Positions 2,483 through 16,531 of a stretch of DNA of 32,228 bases are shown piece by piece. The stretch lies in contig JAGTVG010000185.1 in assembly GCA_018224645.1 (NCBI GenBank), positions 1 through 32,228 on the forward strand, written 5' to 3'. Source of the stretch: Cyclobacteriaceae bacterium. GTDB taxonomy: Bacteria > Bacteroidota > Bacteroidia > Cytophagales > Cyclobacteriaceae. The notes under the pieces are model-generated. The model made no database searches, had not been told where the DNA came from, and was given only the letters and a program-made list of their open reading frames with translations. Both the position numbers and the translations under genes were made by a program. Position 1 is the stretch's first letter. Each line of letters begins with the position of its first letter.

Positions 2483-3787
2483 ATGAAAAACAAGGAAATC
2501 GTGAAAACAAGAAGGAATTTTTTAAAGACATCCGGGACAGCGGCGATTGGCTCAACAGTTGCACTTAATTTTTTGGTTCCGGGAACATCCTCTGCCATGA
2601 ATAATAATACCCTGAAGGTAGGCCTTATCGGCTGCGGGGGAAGGGGTACCGGTGCTGCAAATCAGGCCCTGAACGCTGATAATAATGTGATATTAACCGC
2701 GATGGCTGATGTATTTGAGGAGAGAATAGTGGAATCACTTTCGAACCTGAAGGAGTTGCATGATGACAAGGTGAAGGTAGAAAACAAGCAGAAATATGCT
2801 GGATTTGATGCTTACCAGAAAGTGATCGATTCGGATGTGGATGTCATTATCCTTGCCACACCCCCTGTTTTTCGGCCGTTGCAACTTGAAAAAGCCGTTG
2901 CTGCCGGTAAACACATCTTCTGTGAAAAACCTATGGCGGTGGATGCACCCGGAATACGGCGGGCCCTTGAGGCAGCCAAAAAAGCGAAGAAAAAAAATCT
3001 TTCACTAGTTTCGGGATTCTGCTGGAGGTTTCACAGCCCGAAACGGGAGACCTTCGGTAAAATACTCAACGGTGATATTGGTGAAGTCCATACCATCTAT
3101 AATACCTACAATACCGGAGAATTATGGTCAAAACCATGGCAACCAGAATGGTCCGATATGGAGAAAAAAATGAGGAACTGGCTTTATTACAACTGGATTT
3201 CCGGTGATCATATTGTTGAACAGGCCATTCACAGCATCGATATGGGCTCCTGGGCTTTGAATGACAGACAGCCAACATCGGTTACGGCCACTGGCGGAAG
3301 ACAGGTCAGGACAGAAGATGTCTTCGGGAATATTTTCGATCATTTTGCCGTTGTATTTGATTATGATAATGGAGCAAAATCATTCCATTTCAGCCGGCAG
3401 CAGAAAAACTGTTCCAGAAGTTACGCCGTTGAAATGTTGGGCAGCAAAGGCCGGTGTGTAGTGGACGTGATCAGGCGACAGCATGAAATCTTTGGCGAGA
3501 ATCCCTGGCGCTATCGTGGCGAAGGGAATGATATGTATCAGCAGGAGCATGATGATTTGTTTGCTTCCATCCGGAATAATAAACCTATTTATGACGGAGA
3601 TTGGATGTTGCAGAGCAATATGATGGCTATCATGGGCAGGATGGCAGCCTATTCGGGTCAGACCATAACCTGGGAGGAGGCCTGGAATTCGGATGAAAAC
3701 CTCGGACCCGATCCCGAAGATTATTCCTGGGAACTGGTATATGAAGGACCGCCTGTCGCTAAGCCAGGTATTACGAAATTCATTTAG
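2483..3787 (+). CDS. Tat-exported Gfo/Idh/MocA-family oxidoreductase
   Basis: A 434-residue periplasmic oxidoreductase of the Gfo/Idh/MocA family, from a different subgroup than the one at 100-1476. The Tat signal is KTRRNFLKTSG followed by a hydrophobic core to about residue 38. The Rossmann turn is GLIGCGGRGTG (about 47-57), and the family motif is CEKPMAVD (about 147-154). The segment GDHIVEQAIHSIDMGSWAL holds the likely catalytic histidine and aspartate. It is followed after 20 bp by a TIM-barrel isomerase/epimerase gene, so the two probably form an operon. Known Bacteroidota operons pair such an oxidoreductase with TIM-barrel proteins in 3-keto-glycoside chemistry; that role is an inference here. 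Confidence 0.93.
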   Translation: MKNKEIVKTRRNFLKTSGTAAIGSTVALNFLVPGTSSAMNNNTLKVGLIGCGGRGTGAANQALNADNNVILTAMADVFEERIVESLSNLKELHDDKVKVENKQKYAGFDAYQKVIDSDVDVIILATPPVFRPLQLEKAVAAGKHIFCEKPMAVDAPGIRRALEAAKKAKKKNLSLVSGFCWRFHSPKRETFGKILNGDIGEVHTIYNTYNTGELWSKPWQPEWSDMEKKMRNWLYYNWISGDHIVEQAIHSIDMGSWALNDRQPTSVTATGGRQVRTEDVFGNIFDHFAVVFDYDNGAKSFHFSRQQKNCSRSYAVEMLGSKGRCVVDVIRRQHEIFGENPWRYRGEGNDMYQQEHDDLFASIRNNKPIYDGDWMLQSNMMAIMGRMAAYSGQTITWEEAWNSDENLGPDPEDYSWELVYEGPPVAKPGITKFI

Positions 3788-3807: not shown

Positions 3808-4722
3808 ATGAACCGTAAAAAATTTATCCAGACCAGCCTTGGAATGGCAGGTGCAGGGATGGTTTCCCCATCATTATTCGCTTCGGGCCCGGAAATTACC
3901 GGAAAAAACATCATGAACCGGACTGAAATTAAAAAATCATTGAAATTCGGCATGGTACAGGAGGATATTTCCATCGAAGAAAAATTCAGGATGTTGAAGG
4001 ATCTTGGATTTGACGGAGTGGAAATGGACAGTCCCAATGAATTAAATAACAGGGATATCATTACCGCGAGGGATAGGACCGGACTTGAGATCCCGGGAGT
4101 TGTCAATTCAGTGCACTGGAAGTCTCCCTTATCCGATCCTGATGAACAGGTTCGCAGGGCTTGTTTCGATTCCATGATCACCGCTTTGGATGATTGTAAG
4201 GAATATGGAGGAACCACCGTATTACTGGTTCCCGGTGTTGTTAATGCCGATGTCTCCTATGAAGATGCGTATCTGCGTTCACAGCAGGAAATCAGAAAAC
4301 TTATTCCTCATGCCGAAGAGACAGGAGTCAAAATTGCCATTGAGAATGTCTGGAATAATTTCCTGATCAGTCGGCGGGAAGCTGCAAGGTATCTGGATGA
4401 GATCAACAGTCCGGTGGTTGGCTGGTATTTTGATGTCGGCAACATTGTCCGGTATGGTTGGCCCGAACACTGGATCAGGACATTGAACAGGCGGATATTG
4501 AAGCTCGATGTAAAGGAATACAGCAGGGAAAAACAGAGAAATGAAGGTATTTCGAAAGGATTTGATGTAGAACTCATGGAAGGTGACTGCAATTGGCCGG
4601 TGGTTAATAAGTCCCTTGAAGAGATCGGGTATAATGGCTGGGCTTCAGCTGAAGTACCCGGCGGTAACAGGAAAAGGATCGAGCAGATTTCCATGTTAAT
4701 GGATAAAATTTTTAAATCATAA
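3808..4722 (+). CDS. Xylose-isomerase-like TIM-barrel protein (sugar phosphate isomerase/epimerase family), exported
   Basis: A 304-residue AP-endonuclease-2/xylose-isomerase-like TIM barrel with an N-terminal export signal. The signal, MNRKKFIQTSLGMAGAG, looks like a Tat signal but has R-K in place of the usual R-R. Likely metal ligands are the glutamate in AIENVWN (about residue 177), the aspartate in YFDVGN (about 215) and the C-terminal glutamate in ASAEVPGG (about 283). The usual HIHLKD histidine segment is replaced by ILKLDVKEY, so the metal site may differ from that of the paralogue at 7423-8343. The gene sits 20 bp after the Tat-exported oxidoreductase. Family members include epimerases, isomerases and 3-keto-glycoside lyases; which activity applies is not known. 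Confidence 0.88.
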   Translation: MNRKKFIQTSLGMAGAGMVSPSLFASGPEITGKNIMNRTEIKKSLKFGMVQEDISIEEKFRMLKDLGFDGVEMDSPNELNNRDIITARDRTGLEIPGVVNSVHWKSPLSDPDEQVRRACFDSMITALDDCKEYGGTTVLLVPGVVNADVSYEDAYLRSQQEIRKLIPHAEETGVKIAIENVWNNFLISRREAARYLDEINSPVVGWYFDVGNIVRYGWPEHWIRTLNRRILKLDVKEYSREKQRNEGISKGFDVELMEGDCNWPVVNKSLEEIGYNGWASAEVPGGNRKRIEQISMLMDKIFKS

Positions 4723-7450: not shown

Positions 7451-8343
7451 TTACGACTCTGCAGCAGGGAAGTCTTAACCGATTCATCCGAACCTTCGAA
7501 CGAACGGTCCTCCACTTCAACACAACAGGGACCACGGTATCCAACATCTGTAAGTGCTGAGAAAAAATAACTCCAACGGACATCCCCGAGGCCGGGAATT
7601 TTGGGGGAATGGTATTGATTGGGGTAGCCCATAATCCCGAACCGGTTCAGCTTGTCCCTGTGGATCTTCACGTCCTTCAAATGGATATGATGGAGTCTGT
7701 CCTTAAAATCATAGATCGGCTGGACTTCGTCCATATGCTGCCAGATGAAATGGGATGGGTCATAGTTCAGGCCGAAATTTGCATTTGGAATGATGTTGAA
7801 CATTTTATCCCATATATCCGGCGTGGTAGCCAGGTTTTTACCGCCGGGCCATTCATCCCGGGTGAAGATCATCGGACAGTTCTCAATCCCGATATTGATA
7901 CCCATTTTTTCAGCATACGCGATCACCGGCGGCCACTTTTCCCTGAACATGGCCAGATTATCTTCAACTGTCCTTGAGGGATCCCTTCCGATAAAGGTGG
8001 TCATGGTCCCTATTTCCAGTTTTGCTGAAGCCTCGATCACCTTTCTGATATGTTCGAATGCTGTTTCCGCAGTTTTCAGATCAGGATCAAGGGCATTGGG
8101 ATAATATCCAAGACTTGAAATATAAACACCTTTTTCCCTGAGAAAATTTTTGATCTCCCCTGTTTTACGGTCGTCCAGCTCGTCAACATTGATATGGGTC
8201 ACGCCGGCATAACGGCGTTCGGCCTTTCCTCTCGGCCAGCACATGATCTCAACACATTTGAATCGGTTTTCGGAGGCAAAGGTGATCACTTCCTCAAAAC
8301 TTTTTTCGGCCATGACGGCACTGACAAATCCTAAATCAAGCAT
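7423..8343 (-). CDS. Sugar phosphate isomerase/epimerase, xylose-isomerase-like TIM barrel (cytosolic)
   Basis: A 306-residue TIM-barrel protein without a signal peptide. It keeps the full set of likely divalent-metal ligands: a glutamate in GIENCP (about residue 152), an aspartate in NYDPSHF (about 193), a histidine in HHIHLKDV (about 217) and a glutamate in CCVEVEDRSFEG (about 277). This is the active-site layout of family members that isomerise or epimerise sugars. Its start lies 13 bp after the stop of the sulfatase gene at 8357-9910, indicating an operon with the two sulfatases. The likely role is handling of the desulfated sugar or its oxidised derivative in the cytoplasm. The substrate is unknown. 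Confidence 0.9.
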   Translation of the reverse strand: MLDLGFVSAVMAEKSFEEVITFASENRFKCVEIMCWPRGKAERRYAGVTHINVDELDDRKTGEIKNFLREKGVYISSLGYYPNALDPDLKTAETAFEHIRKVIEASAKLEIGTMTTFIGRDPSRTVEDNLAMFREKWPPVIAYAEKMGINIGIENCPMIFTRDEWPGGKNLATTPDIWDKMFNIIPNANFGLNYDPSHFIWQHMDEVQPIYDFKDRLHHIHLKDVKIHRDKLNRFGIMGYPNQYHSPKIPGLGDVRWSYFFSALTDVGYRGPCCVEVEDRSFEGSDESVKTSLLQSRNYLNQFFIL

Positions 8344-8356
8344 ATTTTATTGTAGT

Positions 8357-9910
8357 TTAAAATTGAAACGTATCTTCCTGATAAAATTTATCATTTTCGA
8401 GCAGCTGCTGAAGCGAATCGATGATAACCCGGTAACGGGGTGAACCAATGGAATTTTTCATTTCACCCGGATCCTCTTCGAGGTCATAAAATTCCCACGC
8501 ATCGATATCATTGTAAAAATGGATCAGTTTATATCTGTCGGTCCGGAGGCCATAATGCCGTTTGACACTATGTGCCCCTGGATATTCATAATAATGGTAA
8601 TAAACATATTCTCTCCAGTCCTTCACCTTGCTATCGTTGAATAAGGGCATCAGCGAGCTGCCATGCCCGTATCCTTCGTCGACACCGGTGATATCGATAA
8701 AGGTAGCGGCAAAATCAAGGTTCTGTACCAGATTCTCATTAACCATTCCAGGCTCGATCCTACCAGGAAATCTCATCAAAAGCGGAGTTCTCAGTGATTC
8801 CTCATACATGAACCGTTTATCGAACCATCCATGTTCACCCAGGTAAAAACCCTGATCGGACGTATAGACTACGAGGGTATTTTCTGACAGACCAAGGACA
8901 TCCAGTTCATCCAGCACCCGGCCAACATTATCATCGACGGAAACGATACAACGCAGGTAATCCTTGATATAACGCTGATATTTCCAAAGTGCCCTTTCCT
9001 TATCAGTCATTTCTGCCTTGAGGTAGGATTCATTCAAAGGATCGTAATGGGCATCCCAGACTTTTTTCTGTTCCCCGGTCATTAATTTGCCATAATGCCA
9101 GGCATATCCCCTTTCGTCCCAGTTTTCCGGATCGGGGTCGTCCGGTCTGATCTTCAGGTCCCAGGCATCCGTCATATCGGCAGCAATTTCCATTTCCTGT
9201 TCCCGGGCGGCGGCAGACCGGCTTATATAATCATCGAAATAGTTATCTGGAACAGGAAGATCCCGGTCATTAAAAAGTGCGAGGTGTTGCAGGTTGGGCA
9301 TCCAGTTCCGGTGCGGGGCCTTATGATGAAGCAACAGGCAGAAGGGCTTTTCCCCCACCCGCATCCGGAGCCAGGATAAGGCAATGTCGGTTGTCAGGTC
9401 GGTTACATATCCTTTCATCTGGACTGTATCTTCCTCGGTGATGAAGAAAGGATTGTAATATTCTCCCTGATCGCGCAGGATCTGGTAATGGGAAAAACCT
9501 GCTGGCCGGGATTTCAGATGCCATTTACCGATTACGGCAGTTTCATAACCCGCTTCACCCAGCCTTTTGATAAACGTATCCTGTGCCCCGTCAAAGGGCA
9601 GGGCATTGTCAAACACTCCGTTTGCATAACTATGTTTGCCGGTGAGCAGAACAGCCCTGGAAGGGGCGCAGATCGAATTGGTCACAAATGCATTTTTAAA
9701 CAGGATCCCTTCATTCGCGAGGCGGTCGATATTGGGCGTCTTGATCAGGTGGTCACTATATGCACTGATGGCCTGATATGCATGATCGTCGGACATGATA
9801 AAAACAATATTGGGTTTTTCAGGAACATCATCATTATATGCAGCACAGCAGGTCAGAAATATTAGTGCCGGCAGTAACAGCAAGCAGATAAAAAATTGAT
9901 TATTTTTCAT
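8357..9910 (-). CDS. Type I sulfatase, predicted lipoprotein
   Basis: A sulfatase of about 517 residues that should remove sulfate esters from a sugar at the cell surface or in the periplasm. The start is placed at the ATG at 9910, because this gives a clean lipoprotein signal (MKNNQFFICLLLLPALIFLTCC); an in-frame ATG at 9976 would add 22 unlikely residues. The formylglycine motif is CAPSR at residues 81-85 and the metal-binding start is MSDDH (about 39-43). The conserved TSDQGFYLGEHGWFDKR block supports the calcium site and general acid/base region. This block recalls GlcNAc-6-sulfatase-like members of sulfatase family S1, but the subfamily is uncertain. It sits between a second sulfatase and the TIM-barrel isomerase in one minus-strand operon. 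Confidence 0.92.
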   Translation of the reverse strand: MKNNQFFICLLLLPALIFLTCCAAYNDDVPEKPNIVFIMSDDHAYQAISAYSDHLIKTPNIDRLANEGILFKNAFVTNSICAPSRAVLLTGKHSYANGVFDNALPFDGAQDTFIKRLGEAGYETAVIGKWHLKSRPAGFSHYQILRDQGEYYNPFFITEEDTVQMKGYVTDLTTDIALSWLRMRVGEKPFCLLLHHKAPHRNWMPNLQHLALFNDRDLPVPDNYFDDYISRSAAAREQEMEIAADMTDAWDLKIRPDDPDPENWDERGYAWHYGKLMTGEQKKVWDAHYDPLNESYLKAEMTDKERALWKYQRYIKDYLRCIVSVDDNVGRVLDELDVLGLSENTLVVYTSDQGFYLGEHGWFDKRFMYEESLRTPLLMRFPGRIEPGMVNENLVQNLDFAATFIDITGVDEGYGHGSSLMPLFNDSKVKDWREYVYYHYYEYPGAHSVKRHYGLRTDRYKLIHFYNDIDAWEFYDLEEDPGEMKNSIGSPRYRVIIDSLQQLLENDKFYQEDTFQF

Positions 9911-14956: not shown

Positions 14957-16531
14957 TCAGGCTCTCCACCCCCTTTTCCTCCCATTCATCACCTCATAAC
15001 TTGCCAGGGCATCGAGGGCCAGGTTGGTGTCTTCCACCATCTGGAAATCATACATGCCGGCACAGATGAAATCGGCACCTTTTTCAAAAGCATACCGGAA
15101 AGCTTCATTCGGATGGATGGCACCGGCGGCCATAACCTTGAAGGCTATCCACGGTTGCGGTAAAGATTCCATGAATTCAATGGTCCGCTCAGGATTGAAG
15201 CAGTACATGTTATCATGCCATTCTTCGGCTTTGGCAGACCAATAATTATGATGATGAAGTGTTTTCATCCAGAAATCTGGTTCATAACCTTCTTCAACAC
15301 ATGCTTCAATGGTTTCAATATGATGAGAACCGATTCCCAGTACTACATTATTATCCCGGATCAATTGAAGAGCGCCTTCCAGTTCCTTTTTCATGCCGTT
15401 TTTCATATAATAATCGGCCGTTTCACCCTGTATATAGCAGGCTACGGCCCCGAAATCGATGGCCCGCCGTATCCGGTCCAGATATTTCTGGTAAGGGGTA
15501 GGGTAAATCCCTTTGTCATACTCCAAACCAGCACAATCCGAGATGAATTTGATCTTGCCAATTCCTCTTTTCCAGTATTCATCGATCATGGTTGCCATAA
15601 TGGGATTGGTCAGGAGCGTATCGACACCACATTTCTCAGCCAGCAGGAACGTGGCGAATATTTTATCCCTGTGATGATAGGCTTTAACCAGTTGGGATAC
15701 ATATATGAGGTCCCTTGAATGAGAATACCCTGATAAAAGATTCCCGCCAAGGATAAGACGGCTGAATTCCACATTCTTGATCTTGCCTTTCGGGATCAGT
15801 CCTTTGAGTTCATTCAATACCGTAACATTCAAATTCTTAACGGAAGCACCGGTTACGGCCTCAACCAGGTTTTGTTCTTCATAACTTTCCCATTTCATTC
15901 TTCGAAACAGGGCGACTCCGAAAATTCCTGCAACGGGTAAGGTGAGCGCCCCTTTCAGCCATTGTCTTCTTTTGAGTTGTTCCGTGGATACGATCTGACC
16001 TTCCTGCGATTCTATATTTACTTTCTCTTCCCTAACCCGGTCATCTTTTTTAAACAGGAATGCCAGGCTGTCCATTCCGAGAAATTTTCCTGTTGGAATA
16101 AAGGCAAGAACTCCCAGGGCCAGCATTTCGATCAGGTTTTTATTGATGATCATATAGTCTCCTTCGGCGGGAAAGCCGAATTGGATCCTGATAAAGGGAG
16201 GGTGTGCCACATAATAGAGGAAAAGTAGTACCATGCCTCCAACAGCCATTATACGGGAATAGAAACCGAGCATAAGTCCTAACCCGATGATGATCAATGC
16301 CCAGATATTTATAATATCTACGGCTGCCAGAACAGAAGGAGATTCAGCTATCCATTGAAATACCGGCGCAAATATCCAACGGGAAGTAGAAAGATATTCA
16401 GCTGCTGTCCATCCCGGGGTAAATAATTTGGAAAGCCCTTCAAATAAAAAATGCCAGCCAATGGCTACGCGTAAAAGGACCAGCATGATTTTCACATTCC
16501 TGTTGAGAATTGAGGCGCCTGGTTTTTCCAT
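14957..16531 (-). CDS. DoxX-like membrane domain fused to a Tat-type signal and a TIM-barrel domain
   Basis: A 524-residue fusion. Residues 1-150 form a DoxX-like domain with four hydrophobic helices (about 12-31, 70-90, 93-109, 131-146) and the FLFEGLSKLFTPGW segment typical of the family. A charged cytoplasmic linker (about 160-187) leads to KRRQWLKG with arginines at 188-189, then a hydrophobic helix at about 194-209. This reads as an internal twin-arginine signal. The remainder, from about 250, starts SRLILGGNLLSGYSHSRD and resembles an aldo/keto-reductase-like or related TIM barrel. With four helices before it, the RR motif would face the cytoplasm, and the C-terminal domain would end up in the periplasm. 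It may couple a periplasmic reaction to membrane redox; substrate unknown. Confidence 0.85.
   Translation of the reverse strand: MEKPGASILNRNVKIMLVLLRVAIGWHFLFEGLSKLFTPGWTAAEYLSTSRWIFAPVFQWIAESPSVLAAVDIINIWALIIIGLGLMLGFYSRIMAVGGMVLLFLYYVAHPPFIRIQFGFPAEGDYMIINKNLIEMLALGVLAFIPTGKFLGMDSLAFLFKKDDRVREEKVNIESQEGQIVSTEQLKRRQWLKGALTLPVAGIFGVALFRRMKWESYEEQNLVEAVTGASVKNLNVTVLNELKGLIPKGKIKNVEFSRLILGGNLLSGYSHSRDLIYVSQLVKAYHHRDKIFATFLLAEKCGVDTLLTNPIMATMIDEYWKRGIGKIKFISDCAGLEYDKGIYPTPYQKYLDRIRRAIDFGAVACYIQGETADYYMKNGMKKELEGALQLIRDNNVVLGIGSHHIETIEACVEEGYEPDFWMKTLHHHNYWSAKAEEWHDNMYCFNPERTIEFMESLPQPWIAFKVMAAGAIHPNEAFRYAFEKGADFICAGMYDFQMVEDTNLALDALASYEVMNGRKRGWRA

Follow-up and report, generated by a model that had tools for sequence, protein, structure and literature searches.

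Dual Sec-Tat proteins, among them actinobacterial Rieske proteins, Sco3746 and a polyferredoxin, have an even number of N-in helices, a conserved twin-arginine (RR) pair right before the last helix, which is weakly hydrophobic and followed by basic residues, and a soluble extracytoplasmic domain; in Sco3746 and the polyferredoxin there are four helices and then TMD5 (PMC5449189, in the parts available). According to Tooke et al. 2017 (the same paper), it is low hydrophobicity together with C-terminal positive charges that lets Tat take over the last helix from Sec. A second relevant group comprises carriers flavinylated by ApbE – FMN_bind/NqrC/RnfG, DUF2271, DUF3570 and the fumarate and urocanate reductases – which have an extracytosolic D-x-x-[ST]-G-A-[ST]-like site tied to redox machinery in the membrane and, in certain genomes, to a neighboring apbE (portions of PMC8238504 and PMC11334425). 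The ApbE site reads D-x-x-[S/T]-G-A-[S/T], FMN is attached to the last residue, and seven residues suffice as a tag (PMC12052999, in part). Thirdly, thiosulfate:quinone oxidoreductase (TQO, DoxDA), whose DoxD is a bundle of the DoxX/DoxD type, passes electrons to caldariella quinone (PMC8551704, in part). Periplasmic 3-keto sugar oxidation is described without DoxX in the available portion of PMC9007349. Literature searches on DoxX with flavinylation, flavin, Tat signal and Gfo/Idh/MocA found no description of a protein such as the one reported here; the word DoxX is absent from the main texts of PMC5449189, PMC8238504 and PMC11334425, and in the part of PMC13104607 seen DoxX proteins are merely listed in a proteome table.

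The window (the whole analyzed stretch of 32,228 nucleotides from a Cyclobacteriaceae bacterium, contig JAGTVG010000185.1) contains a gene whose product bears likenesses to all three groups (Table 1). An earlier note on this DNA had described a DoxX domain, a cytoplasmic linker, an RR pair with a fifth helix and a soluble, TIM-barrel-like domain. The open reading frame, Pfam and an AlphaFold model bear out this order, and the C-terminal part does adopt a barrel, of the aldo-keto-reductase (AKR) fold (Z 21.2); the flavinylation-like motif had been overlooked. The model (mean pLDDT 85.6; alignment of 83 sequences) runs from the DoxX helices through the RR/TM5 helix and a disordered stretch (221-233) to a beta/alpha barrel (~245-517), and the hydrophobic stretch after KRRQWLKG peaks at aa 191-209.

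Table 1. Position of the fusion gene and its features in the window.
Feature	Residues (aa)	Position	Strand	Basis or remark
Whole gene: DoxX, RR helix, flavinylation-like motif, AKR-fold barrel	524 in all	14957..16531	(-)	ATG start
DoxX four-helix membrane domain, predicted N-in/C-in	11-162	16046..16501	(-)	Pfam PF07681, separate model
Internal twin-arginine motif KRRQWLKG	187-194	15950..15973	(-)	RR = aa 188-189, codons 15965-15970
Fifth helix, weakly hydrophobic by a rough score	191-210	15902..15961	(-)	R210, R211 and K213 at or just past its end
Flavinylation-like motif EAVTGAS	224-230	15842..15862	(-)	Alignment and regex counts; definition from PMC12052999 (in part)
Candidate FMN-carrying residue	S230	15842-15844	(-)	Last position of EAVTGAS
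Aldo-keto-reductase-fold TIM barrel	245-518	14978..15799	(-)	Predicted structure; no Pfam family

The reading that we favor, and whose probability as a whole we place a little above even, is that of a protein built by Sec and then Tat in which a covalent FMN links a periplasmic oxidoreductase to DoxX and quinone. The four-helix DoxX bundle would be inserted by Sec, which would then let go of the apparently weakly hydrophobic, RR-preceded helix 5; the barrel would fold in the cytoplasm and be exported by Tat to the periplasm, helix 5 staying behind as an anchor. A periplasmic ApbE would place FMN on S230, within the flexible tag that separates the barrel from the membrane, and the tethered FMN would move electrons between the active site of the barrel and a quinone handled by DoxX, the likeliest direction being oxidation of a periplasmic sugar-like substrate and reduction of the quinone. 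It appears to be an electron-transfer protein of a kind not described so far: it would join three themes unlinked in the papers searched (DoxX, whose role is unclear, ApbE flavinylation, and proteins built by both Sec and Tat), would allow a direct test of the role of DoxX and of how exported periplasmic oxidoreductases dispose of electrons, and would represent a flavinylation site of a kind that profile searches for FMN-binding domains would overlook.

The fusion is not a chance event: there are four full copies of it in the source genome and at least 537 confirmed relatives in the genome collection, and the RR pair is kept throughout the readable rows. The source genome also carries one barrel lacking DoxX (L005) and one doxX beside a Tat-signal Gfo/Idh/MocA gene. 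Eighty loci were kept (all but one labeled as metagenome-assembled genomes, MAGs): 42 from Bacteroidota, 12 from Planctomycetota, 7 from Acidobacteriota, and smaller numbers from KSB1, Hydrogenedentota, Calditrichota and Kiritimatiellota. The barrel is present in 2 of 395 genomes drawn from the class, one being the source genome, and its distribution is therefore patchy. Counts below refer to 88 readable aligned rows, that is, 87 fusions plus L005, with L076 left out throughout; removal of near-copies at 90% identity reduces the fusions from 87 to 83. Rows at least 90% identical, and L065, were left out of alignment A2. One pair among the 87 is identical in sequence (own_L008 and L063), and two genome handles (G001 and G506) are apparently one genome.

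If the last domain is handed from Sec to Tat, then the RR pair and the helix behind it matter. Both arginines are invariant in 88/88 rows (87/87 fusions; 83/83 without near-copies), as is the proline ten residues past the second arginine in the 88 rows. In the models the RR pair follows the four DoxX helices – an even number, as in the dual Sec-Tat proteins, and the same four-then-TMD5 layout as in Sco3746 and the polyferredoxin – after a linker, counted from G152, of 22-46 residues in the 87 fusions. By a rough score (approximate hydropathy values, our own weighting; TM1 is weak too) helix 5 has the lowest hydrophobicity of all five helices in 65 of 87 fusions, and just past it (aa 206-222) stand a median of 4 lysines or arginines (range 1-6; n=87 fusions). 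Dual targeting by Sec and Tat, as the earlier note had proposed, is thus well supported at the level of sequence; the class of redox substrate that it had attached to the proposal remains a guess. The families of PMC5449189, so far as that paper was available, have neither a DoxX membrane part nor an AKR-fold barrel, and the Tat route is in the present case a prediction.

The RR pair could be incidental, with Sec inserting the whole protein or the barrel remaining in the cytoplasm. The basic residues after helix 5 leave topology ambiguous by the positive-inside rule alone, and an RR signal is absent altogether from a few barrels without DoxX. Against this stand the invariance of the pair, the presence of an RR in the first 110 residues of 21 of 25 usable DoxX-less homologues, and the signature known for Sec-to-Tat hand-over, in which a weak last helix is followed by basic residues (PMC5449189, in part): we regard an incidental pair as very improbable. 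Among the 87 readable fusions none was found that keeps the fusion and lacks the RR pair, and nothing indicates a cytoplasmic barrel. Since the DoxX-less barrels mostly carry an RR near the N-terminus, Tat export seems to belong to the barrel as such. The Pfam model TAT_signal matched 1/83 family members (0.03) and was set aside.

Between helix 5 and the barrel lies the putative tag. Across the 88 rows its first position is D in 82, the second A in 69, the fourth S/T in 84, the fifth G/S in 81 (S or T replaces G in 34), the sixth A in 79 and the seventh – the position that would accept FMN – S/T in all 88. The strict pattern D..[ST]GA[ST] occurs in 43/87 fusions (40/83 without near-copies), the relaxed pattern [DEN]..[ST][GSA]A[ST] in 73/87 (69/83) and near-variants in 84/87 (80/83); the relaxed motif is thus missing in 14/87, and even a near-variant in 3/87. 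The relaxed pattern was found nowhere outside the tag site in these proteins (45,846 residues). In the AlphaFold model the tag falls in the disordered stretch (pLDDT<50), and such predicted disorder suits a tether. The Bacteroidota O-glycosylation motif was considered as another reading of the tag and ruled out, position 2 being mostly A.

The tag of the window protein departs from the consensus in its E for D and its S as acceptor, and because of the E it matches only the relaxed form. Changing D to A in an ApbE site had a minor effect only, in one target, and S is used less well than T as acceptor by ApbE (PMC12052999, in part). FMN_bind motifs in these genomes vary as well (DAITAAT, NGLSGAT, EAITGAT, DGISGAT), so that both an initial E and a fifth residue other than G occur in FMN_bind proteins; S at the fifth position, common in the fusion tags, was found in none of the FMN_bind motifs read in these genomes, and two residues past the acceptor FMN_bind motifs mostly have S/T and fusion tags mostly K. 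We consider a covalent flavin tag on the fusion likely. The fusion resembles known ApbE-flavinylated carriers in the pattern of its putative site, in its apparent tie to a redox apparatus of the membrane and, in a few genomes, in its apbE neighbor, and differs from them in that its tag is bare and short, with no match to FMN_bind, DUF2271 or DUF3570.

The DoxX part matches PF07681 over aa 17-106 (E 2.7e-7; 31.6 bits against a Pfam cut-off of 23.6), as do 82/83 family members at E<=0.1; Pfam HTTM is weakly matched by 7/83. H27, E31, R93 and E135 are among the residues conserved in the DoxX part. Modeled alone (pLDDT 89.6), the domain has as its best structural match the assembly factor NACHO/TMEM35A (Z 11.0) and also resembles the vitamin-K-binding membrane helices of GGCX, the vitamin-K-dependent carboxylase (Z 9.1), values that, for helical bundles, may reflect merely a shared arrangement of helices; Foldseek with the same model gave no match below E 0.4. 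The bundle type is common to DoxX and the DoxD of TQO, an enzyme that delivers electrons to quinone (PMC8551704, in part); on the NCBIfam DoxD model (NF041179), however, the window protein scores 15 bits against a cut-off of 300. The GGCX-like helices, a weak hint, and the TQO precedent make use of a quinone by DoxX suggestive only. The earlier note had linked the protein to membrane quinone or DoxX chemistry: the flavin tag adds a plausible route for such a link, and the quinone is what we infer.

A further question concerns barrels that lack DoxX. The relaxed motif occurs in 0 of 26 usable DoxX-less barrels (25 plus L005, the set being without L156, with a run of N at the tag position, and the frameshifted L160), and 3 of the 25 have a loose near-variant ahead of the barrel. 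In a quick tree L005, which has neither DoxX nor tag, falls within the clade of the fusions (SH-aLRT 97); its contig ends 291 bases upstream. Tag and DoxX thus co-occur in the barrel family. Most standalone barrels are related to one another, which leaves few phylogenetically independent contrasts: five changes of state in all, two of them on supported branches (sign test p 0.5). A Fisher test of the association takes no account of kinship and is given no weight. No doxX was found beside the DoxX-less barrels by blastp in the stretches examined.

These barrels bear on the idea that a covalent FMN is the barrel's own catalytic cofactor and DoxX a mere anchor or assembly factor. TIM barrels frequently bind FMN, the tag stands just ahead of the barrel, a conserved loop (~261-280) is modeled with low confidence, and the top structural match of DoxX is to an assembly factor. 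Yet related barrels without DoxX lack the tag, and so the barrel seems not to need it for its own chemistry; moreover, such a tag is seen again in Gfo enzymes linked to DoxX, and these have a Rossmann fold of their own. A cofactor serving the barrel alone is therefore, in our judgment, decidedly unlikely, and we return to the relay.

The earlier note had suggested looking for the two halves encoded separately side by side. What was found is not a doxX beside a DoxX-less barrel but a doxX followed by a gene for a Tat-signal Gfo/Idh/MocA protein. At 13 of 17 separate-doxX loci in relatives of the source genome an RR-bearing gene directly follows doxX, and 12 of these 13 carry D[AG][VI][TS]SAT near residue 440, the thirteenth being cut off; one further pair of doxX and tagged gene occurs at L023. 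The one gene of this set tested with Pfam (L019) is a Gfo/Idh/MocA protein. These proteins have in common with the fusion the type of DoxX, an RR-x-h-h-K-G...P-x-x-G-like signal and the kind of motif; they differ in being separate genes with an unrelated catalytic fold (by Pfam, for L019), and in the placing of the motif, which in the fusion stands ahead of the enzyme domain.

A search with L019 separated a close subfamily (at least 394 bits) from paralogues (at most 181 bits). The motif is present in 7/7 of the close subfamily, three of which are loci of the doxX-adjacent set, and in 0/21 paralogues without DoxX nearby (two of 23 picks were excluded). In a wider set it occurs in 14/20 Gfo ORFs of at least 35% identity, the other six being degenerate or truncated, and in 0/19 below 35%, of which 16 lie in loci holding a DoxX. 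These motif-free genes include some upstream of doxX and two ApbE-DoxX-Gfo clusters; from their sequences DoxX can evidently work, in some loci, without a tag on its neighbor.

Several loci deserve separate mention. In L179-L181, L185, L186 and L189 an RR-bearing Gfo gene lies upstream of doxX, neither protein has the relaxed motif, and the DoxX shares 48-54% identity with the one in the window. One member of the tagged subfamily (L123, G001:C246) is an exception to the pairing: it keeps DGLTSAT, has no DoxX within 1.36 kb and has a different signal sequence. In the source genome (L006/L007; G000:C268, about 7836-9833) doxX is broken into two frames, by frameshift or assembly error, next to an intact reading frame for a Tat-signal Gfo protein with DAITSAT.

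If the tag is flavinylated, ApbE should be at hand. The source genome has 3 ApbE matches, one partial at a contig end, and ApbE was matched in 47 of 49 fusion-bearing genomes, the other two being MAGs (6.2 and 2.0 Mb); set against the presence of ApbE in about half of bacteria (PMC8238504, in part) this is a raw comparison across lineages, ApbE being common anyway. In three genomes an apbE ORF adjoins the fusion: at L154 it lies 7 bp downstream, at L153 it lies 121 bp upstream, and at L152 its 3' end overlaps that of a shortened fusion. In two more it adjoins a lone doxX (L148 and L149, the latter by blastp only). The number of apbE genes expected by chance within 300 bp of any DoxX match is ~0.03, estimated roughly with a Poisson model from rounded sizes of the genomes and from numbers of matches that include split ones. 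ApbE also lies within 2.4 kb at two places (G530:C202, G520:C142), which are not adjacent and were left out of the adjacency count. Near most fusion loci no ApbE was found; among the 80 loci an apbE masked by antisense ORFs came to light at L051. L148 and L149 (G489:C1, G509:C488) are three-gene clusters in which an ApbE with an N-terminal RR is joined by a DoxX encoded separately and by a Gfo/Idh/MocA protein that has no flavinylation-like motif.

FMN_bind is matched under 13 of 16 genome handles; as the places under G001 and G506 are identical, this amounts to 12 of 15 distinct genomes. The remaining three are exactly the genomes with apbE beside the fusion, which had been put into the sample on purpose. 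These three have no DUF2271 or DUF3570 match, and two of them have no match to NqrB/RnfD (G497 has one); judged by these four families, the tagged fusion is a leading candidate for the ApbE substrate in two genomes.

It is against these results that a dual Sec-Tat protein without covalent flavin has to be weighed: the tag would then be a structural or docking element, and another barrel cofactor, for example tightly bound NAD(P), would react with DoxX directly. Some exported Gfo-type enzymes hold NADP tightly, many DoxX-linked Gfo proteins have no such motif, and the motif of the window protein is imperfect. A structural element, on the other hand, is not expected to fit the constrained positions of an ApbE site, to end in S/T in every row and to be disordered in the model, nor does this explanation sit well with recurrence of the motif in an unrelated enzyme family beside DoxX and with motif proteins beside apbE in genomes lacking an FMN_bind match. 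We hold the flavin-free explanation to be unlikely, while giving it the most weight among the alternatives, and continue with the flavin relay.

Fusion and Gfo pairs may be two forms of one arrangement. On this wider reading, which is tentative and falls somewhat short of even probability, DoxX would serve glycan-degrading bacteria as the membrane subunit of a respiratory system not described so far, with a quinone at DoxX, the bare ApbE tag as the wire, and exchangeable Tat-exported oxidoreductases – a fused AKR-fold barrel or a separate Gfo/Idh/MocA protein – feeding in electrons from periplasmic carbohydrates. If true, this would add one more membrane apparatus for flavinylation and one more class of dual Sec-Tat protein.

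The barrel itself aligns best with PA4992 (4exa_D; VIA-align Z 21.2, rmsd 2.8, 234 residues) and also with L-galactose dehydrogenase (Z 19.8; Foldseek and VIA-align). Ten of its residues are invariant – N264, H271, R273, D274, H403, K423, H426, K465, D495 and Q497 – and seven of these (N264, H403, K423, H426, K465, D495, Q497) lie at or just past predicted strands, as in the active site of a TIM barrel. The catalytic tetrad of classical AKRs is Asp-Tyr-Lys-His; its positions appear variable when column conservation and predicted strands are compared by eye. The likeness to AKRs is thus one of fold (Z 19-21), whereas the invariant residues are others, export is predicted, and there is no sequence match. 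Pfam and NCBIfam place the window barrel in no family, and Pfam gives no AKR match at E<=1; no AKR family is among the 13 Pfam families matched by the 83 members at E<=0.1, a search in which HMMER filters may drop weak matches; and a profile search of the PDB returned four matches, all weak, with a best E of 0.12 and most of them to IMP dehydrogenases over 27 residues. BKACE, matched by 1/83 members (0.003), was rejected as the family. The earlier description of the barrel as a possible sugar or aldehyde oxidoreductase is a guess, given an AKR-like fold in which the classical AKR catalytic residues are apparently not conserved.

Among ten proteins of the window that were scanned, three are Gfo proteins and two are sulfatases; the others include an MFS transporter, a xylose-isomerase-like barrel and a fucose-isomerase-like protein, and this company suggests a setting in carbohydrate metabolism. 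Elsewhere in the source genome a partial ApbE gene adjoins a DUF3570 match (G000:C501), a pair known as a flavinylation system (PMC8238504, in part), and at L036 (G000:C155) an ApbE lies between an RR-signal Gfo-like gene and an N-terminal-RR gene resembling a sugar isomerase. Within the window, RR signals begin two Gfo/Idh/MocA proteins and one xylose-isomerase-like barrel (100-1476, 2483-3787 and 3808-4722), and the sulfatases near these genes suggest a locus for a sulfated glycan.
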